Below the pieces are notes generated by a model, which saw only the letters and a program-made list of their open reading frames with translations, had not been told where the DNA came from and did not search any database. Source: Thermomonas sp. HDW16 (lineage in GTDB: Bacteria > Pseudomonadota > Gammaproteobacteria > Xanthomonadales > Xanthomonadaceae). From it: a stretch of DNA of 64,000 bases. The stretch covers positions 868,001-932,000 of the forward strand of contig NZ_CP049872.1 in NCBI RefSeq assembly GCF_011302915.1, given 5' to 3'. Of the stretch, positions 42,937 through 47,331 are shown piece by piece. A program made the position numbers and the translations under genes. How positions within the stretch are numbered: the first letter of the stretch is position 1; each line of letters opens with the position of its first letter.

Positions 42937-43332
42937 TCAGTGGTTGATGATGATTGGATCCTTGACAGTGGCGGCGATGCTCGTTTCGGTGCAGTAGACC
43001 TTGTGGTTGTAGAGGACGCAGAGCCTGTAGACCCATCTTCCATCGCTGTCGCCATTGGAATGGGTGTCGGTGATCGACATGGAATTTCCATTCGAACCCC
43101 GTGCCGGTTCGCCGAATATCTCGCTGGATGGAGGCGGATCGGTGACCCATTGAAACCCCGGCTCCGGGTCGGACATGGGCACGAATTCGCCTCCGGTCAG
43201 CACGCCGTTCAGGTTCCAGGTGATGGTTTGCGGCTTGGTTTTCTTGTCGATGTGGATGTGTCCGTGGTCGTGCACGTCCAGGACGTTCGGGGTGACCGAT
43301 GTATCCAGCGAGACATTGATGTTGTTGCTCAT
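42937..43332 (-). CDS. Small hypothetical protein, third gene of the SLOG/TIR cassette
   Basis: A 131-residue soluble protein without signal peptide or membrane segment. It is acidic at the C-terminus, His-rich near residues 18-27 (VLDVHDHGHIHIDKK) and contains MSDPEPGFQWV and a Cys pair in YRLCVLYNHKVYCTE. The composition suggests a beta-sandwich. It may belong to the small family that Pfam calls DP-EP, an unverified impression. It is transcribed after the TIR gene with a 48-bp gap. ATG at 43332 is used. Confidence 0.6.
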   Translation of the reverse strand: MSNNINVSLDTSVTPNVLDVHDHGHIHIDKKTKPQTITWNLNGVLTGGEFVPMSDPEPGFQWVTDPPPSSEIFGEPARGSNGNSMSITDTHSNGDSDGRWVYRLCVLYNHKVYCTETSIAATVKDPIIINH

Positions 43333-43380
43333 GGCGATCCTCGGGTTGTCGCATCCTGCGATGGCGCCGAACATCCGGGT

Positions 43381-45537
43381 TCAGCGTTTGGGGGAGGTCG
43401 TGGCCGCTGGGTACGCGGGCGTTGATGGAGGCGGCTTAAAGTCGTGATAACCGGCCGCTGACAGTGCCGTGGTGATCGGCTTCGCTTCATGCTTTCGGCC
43501 TAGTTGCGTCAACGCATCGGCCTTGAGTGCCAACAACCTGGGATCCTGGCGCGCGGAGGTCTGTACATCGATCGTTGCGAGCGCGCGTTCGGCCAGCGCT
43601 TTTCGCCGGCTTTCGGGGGACACGGAGGCCAAGCGCAGCCATGCATTAGCCGTGGCGAGCACGATGCCGCGATCCTGCTGGTTCTCTTTGAGCTGCGGTT
43701 CGAGGGTTTCGAGGGCGGAAGTCAGCTGGTTGTTCACCAGATCGGAATGCTTGCCCGAGGCGATGATCTGCTCGGCGCTTTCGGTCAGTGCGGCCGCATG
43801 TTCGCGTTGCCAAGCCGTTTGTTCAGGACTCGCCTTGATCATGGCTTCAAGCATTTCAAGCGACTGCCCAACTAGTTGCTTCGCGACCTCCGCTTGGCCA
43901 CGTTGCCGTTCGATCTTGGCGAGCTGATAGGCATACAGTCCGATGTCGAATTGGTAGTTGGTACTGCCGGGTTCCATGACATTGAGTCGTTCGGCATCGT
44001 CCAGCGTTTGTCGAAGCAAGGCAGCGCCTTCGTCCAGCTGGCCGCCGAGCGCGAGCGTCCGTCCCAAGGTCGCTCGCGAAATCAGCAGTCGCTCGTGTTG
44101 CGCGTTGTTGCGCCGATCCCTGTCCAAGGAATGCTGCTGGATGACAAGATCGGCACGATAGCCGTTGATTGCCTTGGCAAGGTTTCCGCTCATCAGGGCC
44201 ATCTTCGCCAAATTGTTGTGCGCCAGACCAAGCTGTCCCTGCCAGTCAAGGTTGTCCGGATCAAGAACCGCCAAGGGTTCCGCGGCAGCCAACATGCGCT
44301 CGTAGTTTTCCGCGGCTTCCTCGAAATGCCCGGTGGCTTCGAGGACGTGCCCATTGTTGTTGTCGACGTTCGTCAGTTGGTACAGCAGCCGTGGGTTGCC
44401 GGGGGCGTGCCGACGTGCCGCGGCAAGCACATTGTGGGTTGCATCGAAACCTTGTTGCGCGCCTTTCATGTCGCCCTGATACCAATGGGTCACCCCGATA
44501 TAGGAAAGGATGTCGGCATAGGCGAGTTGTCGCGCCAGATCGGCGGGTCTTGCCCGGGCAAGCGGACCGGACAAGGCCGCTGCTGCCTTGAAGCTTTCCA
44601 TCGCCTTCGGCAAGGCTCCCTGTTCGGAACGGACGATGCCGATCTTGACCAGCGCCTTGGCGCGCTGTTCCAGTGCCTCATCGGTGACATCTGTCTTCGG
44701 CAGCGACTGGAAGTACGCCATCGCCTTGTCGTTGACGGACGACAGGATGTCCAGGCGCCCCACTTCCGACAATTTGTCGTTGAGGTCGCCCAGCATGAAA
44801 TCCACCAGCGTTTCCGCTTGCTTCTGCCGGCGCTCGGCGGCTTTTTTCGCCACCATCGCCTGCACCGCCAGCACGCTGGTCACCAGCATCACCACTACCG
44901 CCAACGCGGTGATCGCGGTCATGCGCAGGTGGCGGCGGCGCGCCTCGCGCTGGCGCAGGGTGTCCAGCGGCAGGCCGAACAGGCCAGCCAGCAGTTTCAA
45001 CAGCGCGAGCGGTTTTCCGTCCTTGCCCGGGCGGGCATCGGCGGCGACGGGATTGGCCGGGGTGCTGTCGAGGTTGCCATCGGCATCCAGTTCATAGCGC
45101 AGGGCAGGCGGGAAGCATTCGTTCGCATCGCCGGAGTTCGGTTCGCCATCGACGATGAAGGCATAGATGCGATCGCCGCGACCCAGTCGCTTGAAGGTCA
45201 GGATTTCGGCATCGACATAAGTGGACTGCGCCGCGTTGGGCGAACACACCACCACCAGCGCTTCGGAATTTTCCAGTGCAGCCTGGATCTGCGGGCCCAG
45301 TTGGCCTGCGCTTGGCAGGTCATCACGGTCGCGGAAGATCGGACTCAGTCGTTCGGGCAACGGGCCATGCGTGCCCGTTGCGCCGCGCAGTCGCGACGGC
45401 AGGCGATACGCTTCCAGCCGGCGATGCAGCCAAGTGGCGTGGCGTGCGTCGGCGTGGCTGTAGCTGATGAAGGCGCGATAACGCAGACCCCACCTCCCGG
45501 GATCGCGCCGACGCCCCTGTTTCGCCGGCCAACCCAA
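43381..45537 (-). CDS. TIR domain / transmembrane / TPR protein
   Basis: A 718-residue protein. Residues 18-135 form a bacterial TIR domain: RYRAFISYSHAD, then the BB-loop-like SPIFRDRDDLPSAGQLG, then VVVCSPNAAQSTYVDAE, in which Glu111 is the likely catalytic glutamate of TIR NAD-cleaving enzymes. One membrane helix lies at about 206-230. The C-terminal 470 residues are helical repeats, TPR-like, with YSGNLAKAINGY-type periodicity. The TIR side should face the cytosol and the repeats the periplasm. It follows the SLOG/SLATT-like gene by 21 bp; the start codon appears to be TTG at 45537. Enzyme activity is inference. Confidence 0.85.
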   Translation of the reverse strand: MGWPAKQGRRRDPGRWGLRYRAFISYSHADARHATWLHRRLEAYRLPSRLRGATGTHGPLPERLSPIFRDRDDLPSAGQLGPQIQAALENSEALVVVCSPNAAQSTYVDAEILTFKRLGRGDRIYAFIVDGEPNSGDANECFPPALRYELDADGNLDSTPANPVAADARPGKDGKPLALLKLLAGLFGLPLDTLRQREARRRHLRMTAITALAVVVMLVTSVLAVQAMVAKKAAERRQKQAETLVDFMLGDLNDKLSEVGRLDILSSVNDKAMAYFQSLPKTDVTDEALEQRAKALVKIGIVRSEQGALPKAMESFKAAAALSGPLARARPADLARQLAYADILSYIGVTHWYQGDMKGAQQGFDATHNVLAAARRHAPGNPRLLYQLTNVDNNNGHVLEATGHFEEAAENYERMLAAAEPLAVLDPDNLDWQGQLGLAHNNLAKMALMSGNLAKAINGYRADLVIQQHSLDRDRRNNAQHERLLISRATLGRTLALGGQLDEGAALLRQTLDDAERLNVMEPGSTNYQFDIGLYAYQLAKIERQRGQAEVAKQLVGQSLEMLEAMIKASPEQTAWQREHAAALTESAEQIIASGKHSDLVNNQLTSALETLEPQLKENQQDRGIVLATANAWLRLASVSPESRRKALAERALATIDVQTSARQDPRLLALKADALTQLGRKHEAKPITTALSAAGYHDFKPPPSTPAYPAATTSPKR

Positions 45538-45558
45538 GATGCAACGCGGTTGCTGCCG

Positions 45559-47331
45559 TTAACCGGACAATCCGCCGGCTTCCAGTGGGCGTTCGCGGTG
45601 GAGCAAAATCCATTCGGCGTGTTCTTCGAGGCAAGCGCAGCCGAGCGCGCGCAGCAGGTGGCGCGATTCGGCATCGTCGCGGGCGTTGTCCAGGCGCGCG
45701 CGGCAACTGTCGAACAATCGGCTCATGAAGCGGAATTGCTTGATCAGTTCCTTGTCCGCGTTCTTGTGGGAATACGCTTCGTGGATACCGGCCAACAGCG
45801 GCAACAGGCCCATCGAAACCAGCAATGTCTTCTGCCAGGCAGGGTTGATGTGTCCGCCTGCCAGCAGCAGCGCCACCGCACCCAGCACGCCGCCGGCCAA
45901 CGCGATGTTGCCGAGCAATGCGGTGGTGCGATAGGCGCGCTCACGGCTTTGGCTGCCTGCATTGAAGTAGGCAAGTTGCCCACTGGAATCATTGTCGATT
46001 GCCGATCGCTCGCCGACCCAACGGCTGATCACCCAGCGCAGCCAATCCTGGTCTGGCCGGAAGTCCTCGCTGCGCAACAGTCCCGAGCTGCGCATCGCGT
46101 GCCGGATCCAGCTCAGGTCCACGTCCTGCTTCTGCAGGAAGCTGTCGTAGCCCAGGCTGCTGTTCGGAGGTGTTTCAACACCCGCCAGGCGCCAGTACAG
46201 CTGCACGCGCAGGCCTTCGGCCAGACCACGGTAATCCAGGTACTTGCGATGCCACTCGCGCCGTTCGCCGATCAAGCTGACCAACCACCCCAGCGCGAAC
46301 AACACCAGGAAGGCCGCCACGTAACGGCGATCGCTGTCCACGTCGGAATACAGGATGAAGGACAGACCCATCGCCGCGGCCATGGCATGGGTGAGCAGCA
46401 TGTTGCGCCGCACGCGGCGGCGGAAATGCACGGCCAGCCAATCCGCCGCGCCGAACAGTTTGTCCACTTCGCGCACCGGTGCTGGGGCCGGCGTTGGCAT
46501 GCCGGCATCGAGCAACGAGCGCACTTCGCTTGCCATCGCGTTCGCGTGGCGTTGCGTGTCGCGATTGAAGGCCTGCATCTGGCCGAACACATGGCAGTAC
46601 TGTGCGGGCACCTTCGAACTGCCGGGCAGGTGGCCTTCGACCGTCACCCAGCGCGGATCGCGCAGGTGCTCGATCGGCTCGCCGGGGCCGTCCTCCGGGT
46701 GCGGAAGACGGCGCGGGCAGTACAGGTGGTAGACGAGGTCGCTTTCGTCATCGGCCAGCAGGTTCGGCGCCACGTCTTCAGCACTGAAGCCCGGCATTGC
46801 ATTGCGCAGGTGGTAATCGACGACCTGCGCGGTGCCGCCAGTCGCTTCGCTGGCCTTGCCATCCCACAGCGCCAGCAGGATCTGGCAATGCGAGGACACG
46901 AACATCCCGAGCTGCGCGTACTGGCGGTTGCGCGCCGGGCCGCGTTGCTGGATCTCTTCCGGCGTGTTGCCGGGCGCCATCGGCAGCGTGCGCACCTGCG
47001 CCTGCGCAAGCAACCCGCGGAAGCGTTCGAGCGAGCCTTCGCGTTCGAAATCGCGTTCGTATTCCGCCTGCGGCATCGGCAGTGGCACGACCAGTTCGAT
47101 GCCGAGCGCCAATGCTTCCTCGGCCACCAACTGGTCGCCGCCTTCGGCGAGCGCGGAGATCAGCCGCAACGGCAGGTCTGGGAATTCGCCGCGCACGCGC
47201 AGGAAGAAATCGCGCACTTCACTGCGCAGCCGCGGGGTCTCTTCGGTGATGAGGTCGCGGTGCGCGGTCAGCCCGATGTTCAGGCGGATTCGCGCCGGCG
47301 TGGTGCTGGCGTTTGCGAGGCTGTCCGGCAT
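45559..47331 (-). CDS. SLOG-like nucleotide-sensor domain with SLATT-like membrane segments
   Basis: A 590-residue protein. Residues about 14-180 look like a SLOG Rossmannoid domain: LNIGLTAHRD, the block LISALAEGGDQLVAEEAL followed by GIELVVPLP, and LALWDGKASEATGGTAQVV, which carries the GGT ligand loop. Two helix pairs follow, at about 312-355 and 470-516. Each is trailed by a SLATT-like helix (HRKYLDYRGLAEGLRVQLYW and HKNADKELIKQFRFM). SLOG domains bind nucleotide-derived ligands, and SLATT proteins are proposed membrane-pore effectors. It is the first gene of the three-gene cassette. ATG at 47331 has AAGGGG nine bases before it; 47352 is the alternative. Confidence 0.72.
   Translation of the reverse strand: MPDSLANASTTPARIRLNIGLTAHRDLITEETPRLRSEVRDFFLRVRGEFPDLPLRLISALAEGGDQLVAEEALALGIELVVPLPMPQAEYERDFEREGSLERFRGLLAQAQVRTLPMAPGNTPEEIQQRGPARNRQYAQLGMFVSSHCQILLALWDGKASEATGGTAQVVDYHLRNAMPGFSAEDVAPNLLADDESDLVYHLYCPRRLPHPEDGPGEPIEHLRDPRWVTVEGHLPGSSKVPAQYCHVFGQMQAFNRDTQRHANAMASEVRSLLDAGMPTPAPAPVREVDKLFGAADWLAVHFRRRVRRNMLLTHAMAAAMGLSFILYSDVDSDRRYVAAFLVLFALGWLVSLIGERREWHRKYLDYRGLAEGLRVQLYWRLAGVETPPNSSLGYDSFLQKQDVDLSWIRHAMRSSGLLRSEDFRPDQDWLRWVISRWVGERSAIDNDSSGQLAYFNAGSQSRERAYRTTALLGNIALAGGVLGAVALLLAGGHINPAWQKTLLVSMGLLPLLAGIHEAYSHKNADKELIKQFRFMSRLFDSCRARLDNARDDAESRHLLRALGCACLEEHAEWILLHRERPLEAGGLSG

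Follow-up and report, generated by a model that had tools for sequence, protein, structure and literature searches.

In the Thoeris systems, effectors are switched by TIR products, namely 3'cADPR, His-ADPR and N7-cADPR (ADPR, ADP-ribose; cADPR, its cyclic form), and the membrane is the site of action of the type II effector, as described in the excerpts of PMC12847820 on which we draw; the type I effector senses its signal through a SLOG domain (excerpts of PMC9503650 and PMC11204291). Another line of work concerns SLATT proteins. The excerpt of PMC9503650 predicts that SLATT is an effector under the regulation of ADPR derivatives, with TIR as a neighbor in Firmicute phages, and that of PMC7159879 places SLATT genes in GTPase-centric systems together with TIR or other nucleotide-related effectors. 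Here we describe three adjacent genes at positions 42937..47331 of a 64,000-nucleotide stretch of the Thermomonas sp. HDW16 genome (contig NZ_CP049872.1; the whole stretch is called the window below). They encode a SLOG–SLATT membrane protein (gene 1), a TIR protein with one transmembrane helix and tetratricopeptide repeats (TPR) (gene 2), and a small protein (gene 3). We propose, with moderate confidence, that the three genes constitute one signaling module, in which a nucleotide made by the TIR protein would be read by the SLOG domain and the SLATT part would then disturb the membrane, and that its likeliest use is a defense of the abortive-infection type.

Results

Three minus-strand open reading frames (ORFs) lie at the positions given in a preliminary description of this DNA, and with the gene starts of the database (47331 for gene 1 and 43332 for gene 3) they are separated by 21 bp and 48 bp, as that description had it. 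The features of the locus are the following.

45559..47331, minus strand: gene 1, SLOG–SLATT membrane protein, 590 amino acids (ORF, database gene call, NCBIfam and Pfam counts in the family).
46768..47295, minus strand: SLOG-type domain of gene 1, about residues 20-195 of a 597-amino-acid reading, with AxGxD and GGT (alignment; YAcAr and DprA in relatives).
46171..46431, minus strand: first SLATT/DUF4231-like two-helix unit of gene 1 (NCBIfam SLATT_1 at residues 308-394, below cut-off; DUF4231 in 42 of 43 family members).
45769..45942, minus strand: second hydrophobic stretch of gene 1, a helix pair in relatives (hydropathy; weak transmembrane-model matches at about residues 471-528).
43381..45537, minus strand: gene 2, TIR–TPR protein with a transmembrane helix, 718 amino acids (ORF, Pfam, database gene call).
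45013..45480, minus strand: TIR domain of gene 2 (Pfam TIR_2 and ThsB_TIR above cut-off).
45205-45207, minus strand: candidate catalytic Glu111 of gene 2 (Glu in all 37 sequences of the alignment).
44863..44919, minus strand: single transmembrane helix of gene 2, residues 207-225, with basic residues ahead of it (hydropathy).
43438..44862, minus strand: TPR part of gene 2 (Pfam TPR models; TPR proteins of the PDB matched by the family profile).
42937..43332, minus strand: gene 3, small DP-EP/SO1698-like protein, 131 amino acids (database gene call; profile match to 3njh, E 8.9e-7; HHalign 95.5%; no signal peptide seen by hydropathy).
42943..42960, minus strand: C-terminal DPIIIN motif of gene 3, opposite DPQIIN of SO1698 (Pro126 and Asn130 invariant in 44 of 44 sequences; alignment to 3njh).

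The Pfam models TIR_2 (E 2.4e-10) and ThsB_TIR (E 2.8e-7) both match gene 2 above their curated cut-offs, and among the TPR models that follow the TIR domain TPR_2 is also above its cut-off. The Glu of the YVDAE position is the catalytic residue in known TIR enzymes; in the gene 2 family it is kept throughout the alignment, as are Cys98 and Asp70 (likewise 37 of 37). The TIR domain thus appears to hold the residues required for NAD (nicotinamide adenine dinucleotide) cleavage, and a NADase activity is predicted from them. The initial view of gene 2 as a TIR protein with Glu in YVDAE, one helix and TPR repeats is therefore borne out by the Pfam cut-offs, by hydropathy and by the conservation of Glu111. 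Among the PADLOC families, SAVED_TIR (E 5.5e-6) is a better match than ThsB1 (E 0.048). Homologues are numerous for both large genes: among 8000 scored candidates each, 3154 proteins match gene 2 and 2480 match gene 1 at E <= 0.001.

Gene 1 by itself gives below-cut-off matches only (Pfam DUF4231, E 0.015; NCBIfam SLATT_1, E 2.1e-5), and its putative assignment comes from the family. Counted over 43 members at E <= 0.05, the SLATT-type models are DUF4231 in 42 (best E 6.8e-8), SLATT_3 in 19 and SLATT_1 in 12, and the SLOG models are YAcAr in six and DprA (DNA_processg_A) in four. The AxGxD and GGT motifs are invariant in the 29 aligned SLOG domains, which come from the window's protein and from distant proteins (A58, G60, D62 and G161-G162-T163 in the numbering of alignment A6). 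In several relatives hydropathy finds four helices that form two pairs. The preliminary description had read gene 1 as a SLOG domain with a GGT loop followed by two SLATT two-helix units; the family evidence agrees with the domains, although the protein itself stays below the curated cut-offs, and the two pairs are seen in relatives, while the hydropathy scan finds two strong helices in the window's own protein. The same description had set the locus apart from classical Thoeris for want of SIR2 and macro domains. We agree, since no SIR2, macro or caspase model of Pfam matches the three proteins at E <= 0.1 and gene 1 has no PADLOC family at E <= 0.1; it is none of the ThsA types (SIR2-SLOG, macro-transmembrane, caspase).

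We then considered how often the genes occur together. Gene 1 matches were found in 25 of the 99 genomes searched and gene 2 matches in 41, some of these through the TPR region only. Genome contigs were scanned and yielded 38 loci (numbered with L; genomes are numbered with G), which together with the stretches from G genomes and plasmids make 64 non-redundant SLOG loci, and counts were made on 45 non-redundant loci having SLATT and at least 2.5 kb on both sides. At 33 of these 45 SLOG–SLATT loci a TIR gene lies within 3 kb (three, L095, L107 and L117, were taken from Pfam and not from the TIR hidden Markov model (HMM) alone), 30 have gene 3 and 29 have both. The outcome that had been named at the outset as speaking against a pair, rare co-occurrence of the homologues of genes 1 and 2, was thus not observed. 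The gene order is SLOG–TIR–small in the window, L057 and L068, TIR–small–SLOG in L080, L086 and L062, and small–TIR–SLOG in L064, L065 and L070, and the gene sets of Dyella (L076, L077, L081-L083) are divergent.

The same SLOG type was sought in a separate sample of 398 genomes spread evenly over phylum. It was found in 17 of them, 14 of which lie outside the order, and in six of these 14 (G446, G727, G622, G467, G460 and G728) a TIR gene stands within about 3 kb; five of the six TIRs are above the Pfam cut-off and that of G728 is below it. We estimate that chance would place a TIR beside SLOG in well under one of 14 genomes, given a handful of TIRs per genome. In G622 and G467 the SLOG domain is in a protein without a SLATT match. 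The link between TIR and SLOG is supported by gene neighborhood well beyond this genome.

Other gene sets contain this SLOG type as well. Three plasmid operons (L096:4642-6483, L098:3635-5489 and L099:4857-6775; hosts Agrobacterium, Bacillus subtilis pBS72 and Methylorubrum) encode a ThsB-type TIR, a caspase-like protease (by annotation in L099) and a standalone relative of the gene 1 SLOG, and resemble a type IV Thoeris to which a SLOG gene has been added. Like the window, they place this SLOG type next to a ThsB-type TIR; unlike the window, they have the caspase-like protease and no SLATT match, and gene 3 was not found in them by HMM. Plasmid L095 has SLOG with TIR and WD40 genes, and in plasmid L097, where SLOG is present, a TIR was not found. 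At L058:3372-9734, L060:3388-9734, L105:4744-11099 and L227:1873-10272, SLOG–SLATT stands by a SIR2-TIR protein and a large protein, and gene 3 was not found. The SIR2-TIR assignment comes from Pfam in L058, from 87% and 88% identity to the L058 protein in L060 and L105, and the L227 protein is 32% identical to that of L058; the large protein is nSTAND by Pfam in L058 and L105. At L219:8531-11427 and L220:3327-6259, SLOG–SLATT overlaps a patatin-like gene (by eye) by a few bases, with no TIR within 3 kb. Finally, TIR genes occur near TPR-S–adenylate/guanylate cyclase proteins at L193:7141-11030, L194:5758-10655 and L199:1989-7160; the middle part of these proteins is SLOG-like by a weak HMM match (L194) or by eye (L193, L199), suggesting a cyclase output instead of SLATT. 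The gene 1 SLOG type therefore marks several TIR-linked gene sets and can be used to find more.

Gene 3 had been described at first as a small protein of no known kind, and nothing in Pfam or NCBIfam comes near a cut-off for it. A family was built by aligning small ORFs that adjoin TIR genes. It is very divergent, with a mean column identity of 16%, and its invariant Pro126 and Asn130 belong to a C-terminal PxIxN-type motif. A profile of 23 sequences matched the PDB entry 3njh ('Peptidase') at E 0.0063; with 44 sequences 3njh reached the value given above and was followed by further PDB entries of the same molecule name. We take 3njh to be SO1698 of Shewanella, of the DP-EP family (PF08985; DUF1888). 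HHalign of the family against SO1698 gave 95.5% with 44 rows, 62.3% with 23 and 20.9% with 24 rows from the window's own clade; the link to SO1698 rests on the divergent members, because narrower alignments score lower. With a profile of 52 sequences SO1698 scored 41.3 (93.2%), against 15.5 for the best of 245 decoy ORFs. The decoys were locus ORFs of 100-230 amino acids, excluding L121-L180, four other loci, known gene 3 matches and 12 motif-bearing ORFs; 246 were scored, and the top one (L184), a family member in the profile, was set aside. Judged by these profiles, gene 3 is a member of a family homologous to SO1698 and a conserved component of the putative module with traceable ancestry, which the preliminary description could not have seen.

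SO1698 presumably folds as a β-sandwich and cleaves its own chain at Asp116–Pro117, where the PxIxN motif falls, with Asp37 as catalytic residue. The PDB chains of SO1698-type entries have two lengths, 119 and 128, which is consistent with such self-cleavage. The C-terminal DPxIxN of the gene 3 family aligns with that of SO1698, and the residue before the motif Pro is Asp in the window's gene 3 and gives N-P, T-P, V-P, H-P and others in the family. We do not claim self-cleavage of gene 3, because the position of the assumed catalytic Asp37 is not conserved and Pro is often preceded by a residue other than Asp. Membership of gene 3 in the Pfam DP-EP family was rejected, PF08985 being absent among the 14 families found for the 44 members at E <= 1; a genome scan matched PF08985 neither in 274 genomes nor in 14 controls and says nothing about absence. 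The pNTSase1 family (PF20301) was also compared, and only the C-terminal motif aligns (HHalign 1.5% over 14 columns; score 17.5 with the gene 3 profile vs 15.5 for the best decoy); a PF20301 scan of the genomes had no match anywhere. A pNTSase1 protein ending in a DPDIKN-type tail like that of gene 3 occurs in Novosphingobium (L100:5959-9525), between a TIR–TPR gene and one for a TPR-S protein that matches SLOG weakly. At L182:9498-10262, a short ORF next to a TIR–TPR gene that runs over two frames has a PIIIN-type tail and no visible gene 3 body; it may be a remnant of gene 3 or a form reduced to the tail.

Signal peptides of gene 3, called by a simple hydropathy rule, separate the TIR proteins into two classes. 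Where gene 3 is predicted to be exported, the partner TIR protein (16 cases) has exactly four Cys after the helix, at four fixed columns; of the 28 without a gene 3 signal peptide one (L186) has four Cys and the rest have 0-2. L064, with two gene 3 copies of which the rule missed one signal, was counted in the signal-peptide class to give 16 and 28. At these columns Cys occurs in all 16 sequences and in 0 or 1 of the 29 others, the window's protein included. In a tree a single branch (support 100/100) separates the 16 from the others, and the association may therefore be one evolutionary event. The pattern fits a periplasmic TPR part with disulfides that would face an exported gene 3 partner. 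This clade, with its predicted exported gene 3 and four invariant TPR cysteines, would suit a more elaborate scheme akin to a Toll-like-receptor pathway, with TIR inside, one helix, repeats outside and a secreted β-sandwich gene 3 that gates it, perhaps by cleavage or release of its C-terminal PxIxN tail, the whole being coupled by a nucleotide to a SLOG-gated channel. We consider this scheme unlikely. In the window, gene 3 has no signal peptide that we could see and the TPR part has no Cys; as its gene 3 lacks a signal peptide, the window's clade would have the same parts wired differently.

Within the genus, gene 1 is patchy (five of 25 genomes, G000 included). The window's cassette has as neighbors an acyl-CoA dehydrogenase/DUF4442 group at one end and a phosphoesterase/major facilitator superfamily (MFS) pair at the other. 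It adjoins the dehydrogenase in all five carriers, and the MFS gene is on its other side in G000, G001 and G011, where the contig reaches, and on another contig in G012 and G014. In 16 of the 20 non-carriers the dehydrogenase and MFS matches are 70-975 bp apart; the other four have them on different contigs (G007, G008) or far apart (G009), or have the MFS gene unmatched (G021). The closest named relatives of genes 1 and 2 are labelled Thermomonas. Identity between G000 and G001 is 94% for the dehydrogenase and 68% for gene 1, and between G000 and G011 80% and 78%. Since the divergence of gene 1 is out of step with that of the flanking dehydrogenase, the pattern is consistent with rapid change, or with exchange, at a site that stays the same. 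An origin of the cassette from a phage or a plasmid was rejected: a phage collection of 50,697 records, searched with gene 1 only, yielded no tblastn match at E <= 1e-5, and none of the plasmid records matches 80% of gene 1 or of gene 2 at a single place.

Discussion

The proposed sequence of events runs as follows. The TIR domain of gene 2 would be held at the inner membrane by its single helix, and the TPR part and gene 3 would control it, the trigger being sensed there. Once triggered, TIR would make an NAD-derived nucleotide, which the SLOG domain of gene 1 would bind, and the SLATT-type helices would then open or disturb the membrane, leading to growth stop or cell death. The steps beyond the domain identities, that is NADase activity, signal, ligand binding, pore action, trigger, gene 3 role and defense use, we infer from work on Thoeris and SLATT proteins. 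The passage from a TIR signal through SLOG to SLATT had already been put forward in the preliminary description, and the domain reading and the adjacency of TIR and SLOG (33 of 45 loci; six of 14 genomes) argue for it. As for its use, phage defense is plausible, although no defense island was seen in the neighborhoods scanned.

Several observations weigh against this proposal. Neither the profile of the gene 1 family nor that of its SLOG domain matches a solved structure at E <= 1. Among the 14 out-of-order genomes with the SLOG type, eight have no TIR match within 3 kb. Of these eight, G599 lies on a contig of 4.8 kb; by eye, two genomes of one genus show a patatin-like gene and in G672 a TIR-like start adjoins SLOG. 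Similarly, no TIR stands within 3 kb at 12 of the 45 SLOG–SLATT loci. Three of these (L058, L060 and L105) have a SIR2-TIR protein at a distance of 3.2 kb, beyond an nSTAND protein, and L111 carries gene 3 without such a TIR. These 12 loci would suit a TIR that is an enzymatically inactive interaction scaffold, with SLOG reading a signal made elsewhere. We hold this to be very improbable, as the candidate catalytic Glu111, together with Cys98 and Asp70, is invariant and TIR is repeatedly paired with the gene 1 SLOG.

The association can also be incomplete from the other side. Of 17 TIR loci chosen for having no gene 1 match nearby, seven still carry gene 3 by HMM with no SLOG–SLATT beside it, and two more (L188 and L200) have a motif-bearing ORF; TIR and gene 3 may therefore be a tighter pair than either is with SLOG–SLATT. 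These pairs would be expected if TIR itself killed the cell by NAD depletion, of which bacterial TIRs are capable according to the excerpts of PMC12847820, and if SLOG–SLATT were a brake or a partner rather than the effector. We find this improbable. A further departure from the complete set, G001, in which gene 1 remains but genes 2 and 3 are missing, speaks against it in turn, for a solo SLOG–SLATT persists there in a genome with no TIR–TPR match, and SLATT is the predicted membrane effector in the excerpts of PMC9503650 and PMC7159879.

The remaining difficulties concern the defense use. In one Lysobacterales group of metagenome-assembled genomes, the module stands in a constant housekeeping neighborhood of glmS-, exbD-, ycgL- and acetyl-CoA synthetase-type genes. 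Moreover, PADLOC found only six families, with one member each, at E <= 1e-5 among 87 flanking proteins of 22 loci, a count with no control set (24 loci had been chosen and L060 and L196 dropped, only L065 of an 11-locus syntenic group being kept; 88 ORFs were listed and one gene-3-like ORF, of L114, was removed). Together with the hydrophobic helix behind TIR in the close relatives scanned and the predicted exported gene 3 of one clade, both findings would suit a housekeeping or stress circuit, in which an envelope-stress receptor tunes membrane permeability through a nucleotide signal and phages play no part. This account is possible but doubtful: gene 1 is patchy in the genus, its divergence at one site is out of step with that of the flanking genes, and the same SLOG is found with TIR–caspase, nSTAND and patatin-like (by eye) genes, which are types of conflict systems. 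We therefore retain the signaling module with a probable use in defense.

Such a module resembles an alarm circuit, with an anchored signal-making enzyme, a signal-reading pore protein and a small third protein, and the set is widely conserved. If the proposal is true, it adds a TIR system with a membrane-built sensor and a SLOG-gated SLATT channel as effector, and the prediction of SLATT as a nucleotide-regulated pore, as published in the excerpted parts of PMC7159879 and PMC9503650, gains a testable three-gene case, whose third component is conserved and can be traced through structure. It would also tie SO1698, a little-known and presumably self-cleaving protein, to immune-like signaling through gene 3. 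We found no account of the SLOG–SLATT/TIR–TPR/gene 3 set in the titles and abstract openings listed from the open-licence literature.

How, then, does the set compare with what has been described? With SO1698, gene 3 shares a family-profile homology along the domain and the aligned C-terminal DPxIxN; its family differs by the lack of a PF08985 match (0 of 44 at E <= 1), by the unconserved position of the presumed catalytic Asp and by a signal peptide that only some of its members are predicted to have. The TIR–SLATT pairs of Firmicute phages and the GTPase-centric SLATT systems have in common with our locus a TIR beside a SLATT membrane effector and the same predicted logic, and the excerpts of PMC9503650 and PMC7159879 that present them make no mention of a SLOG–SLATT fusion, a membrane TIR–TPR protein or an SO1698-like partner. 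Thoeris, as the excerpts of PMC12847820 describe types I, II and IV, likewise has a TIR signal-maker and a nucleotide-responsive effector in one locus. In this comparison gene 2 is above the Pfam cut-off for ThsB_TIR, but far weaker for ThsB1 of PADLOC. Here SLOG is fused to SLATT-type helices instead of SIR2, with no macro or caspase part, the TIR protein appears to be anchored in the membrane and carries TPRs, and an SO1698-like gene is added to the set.

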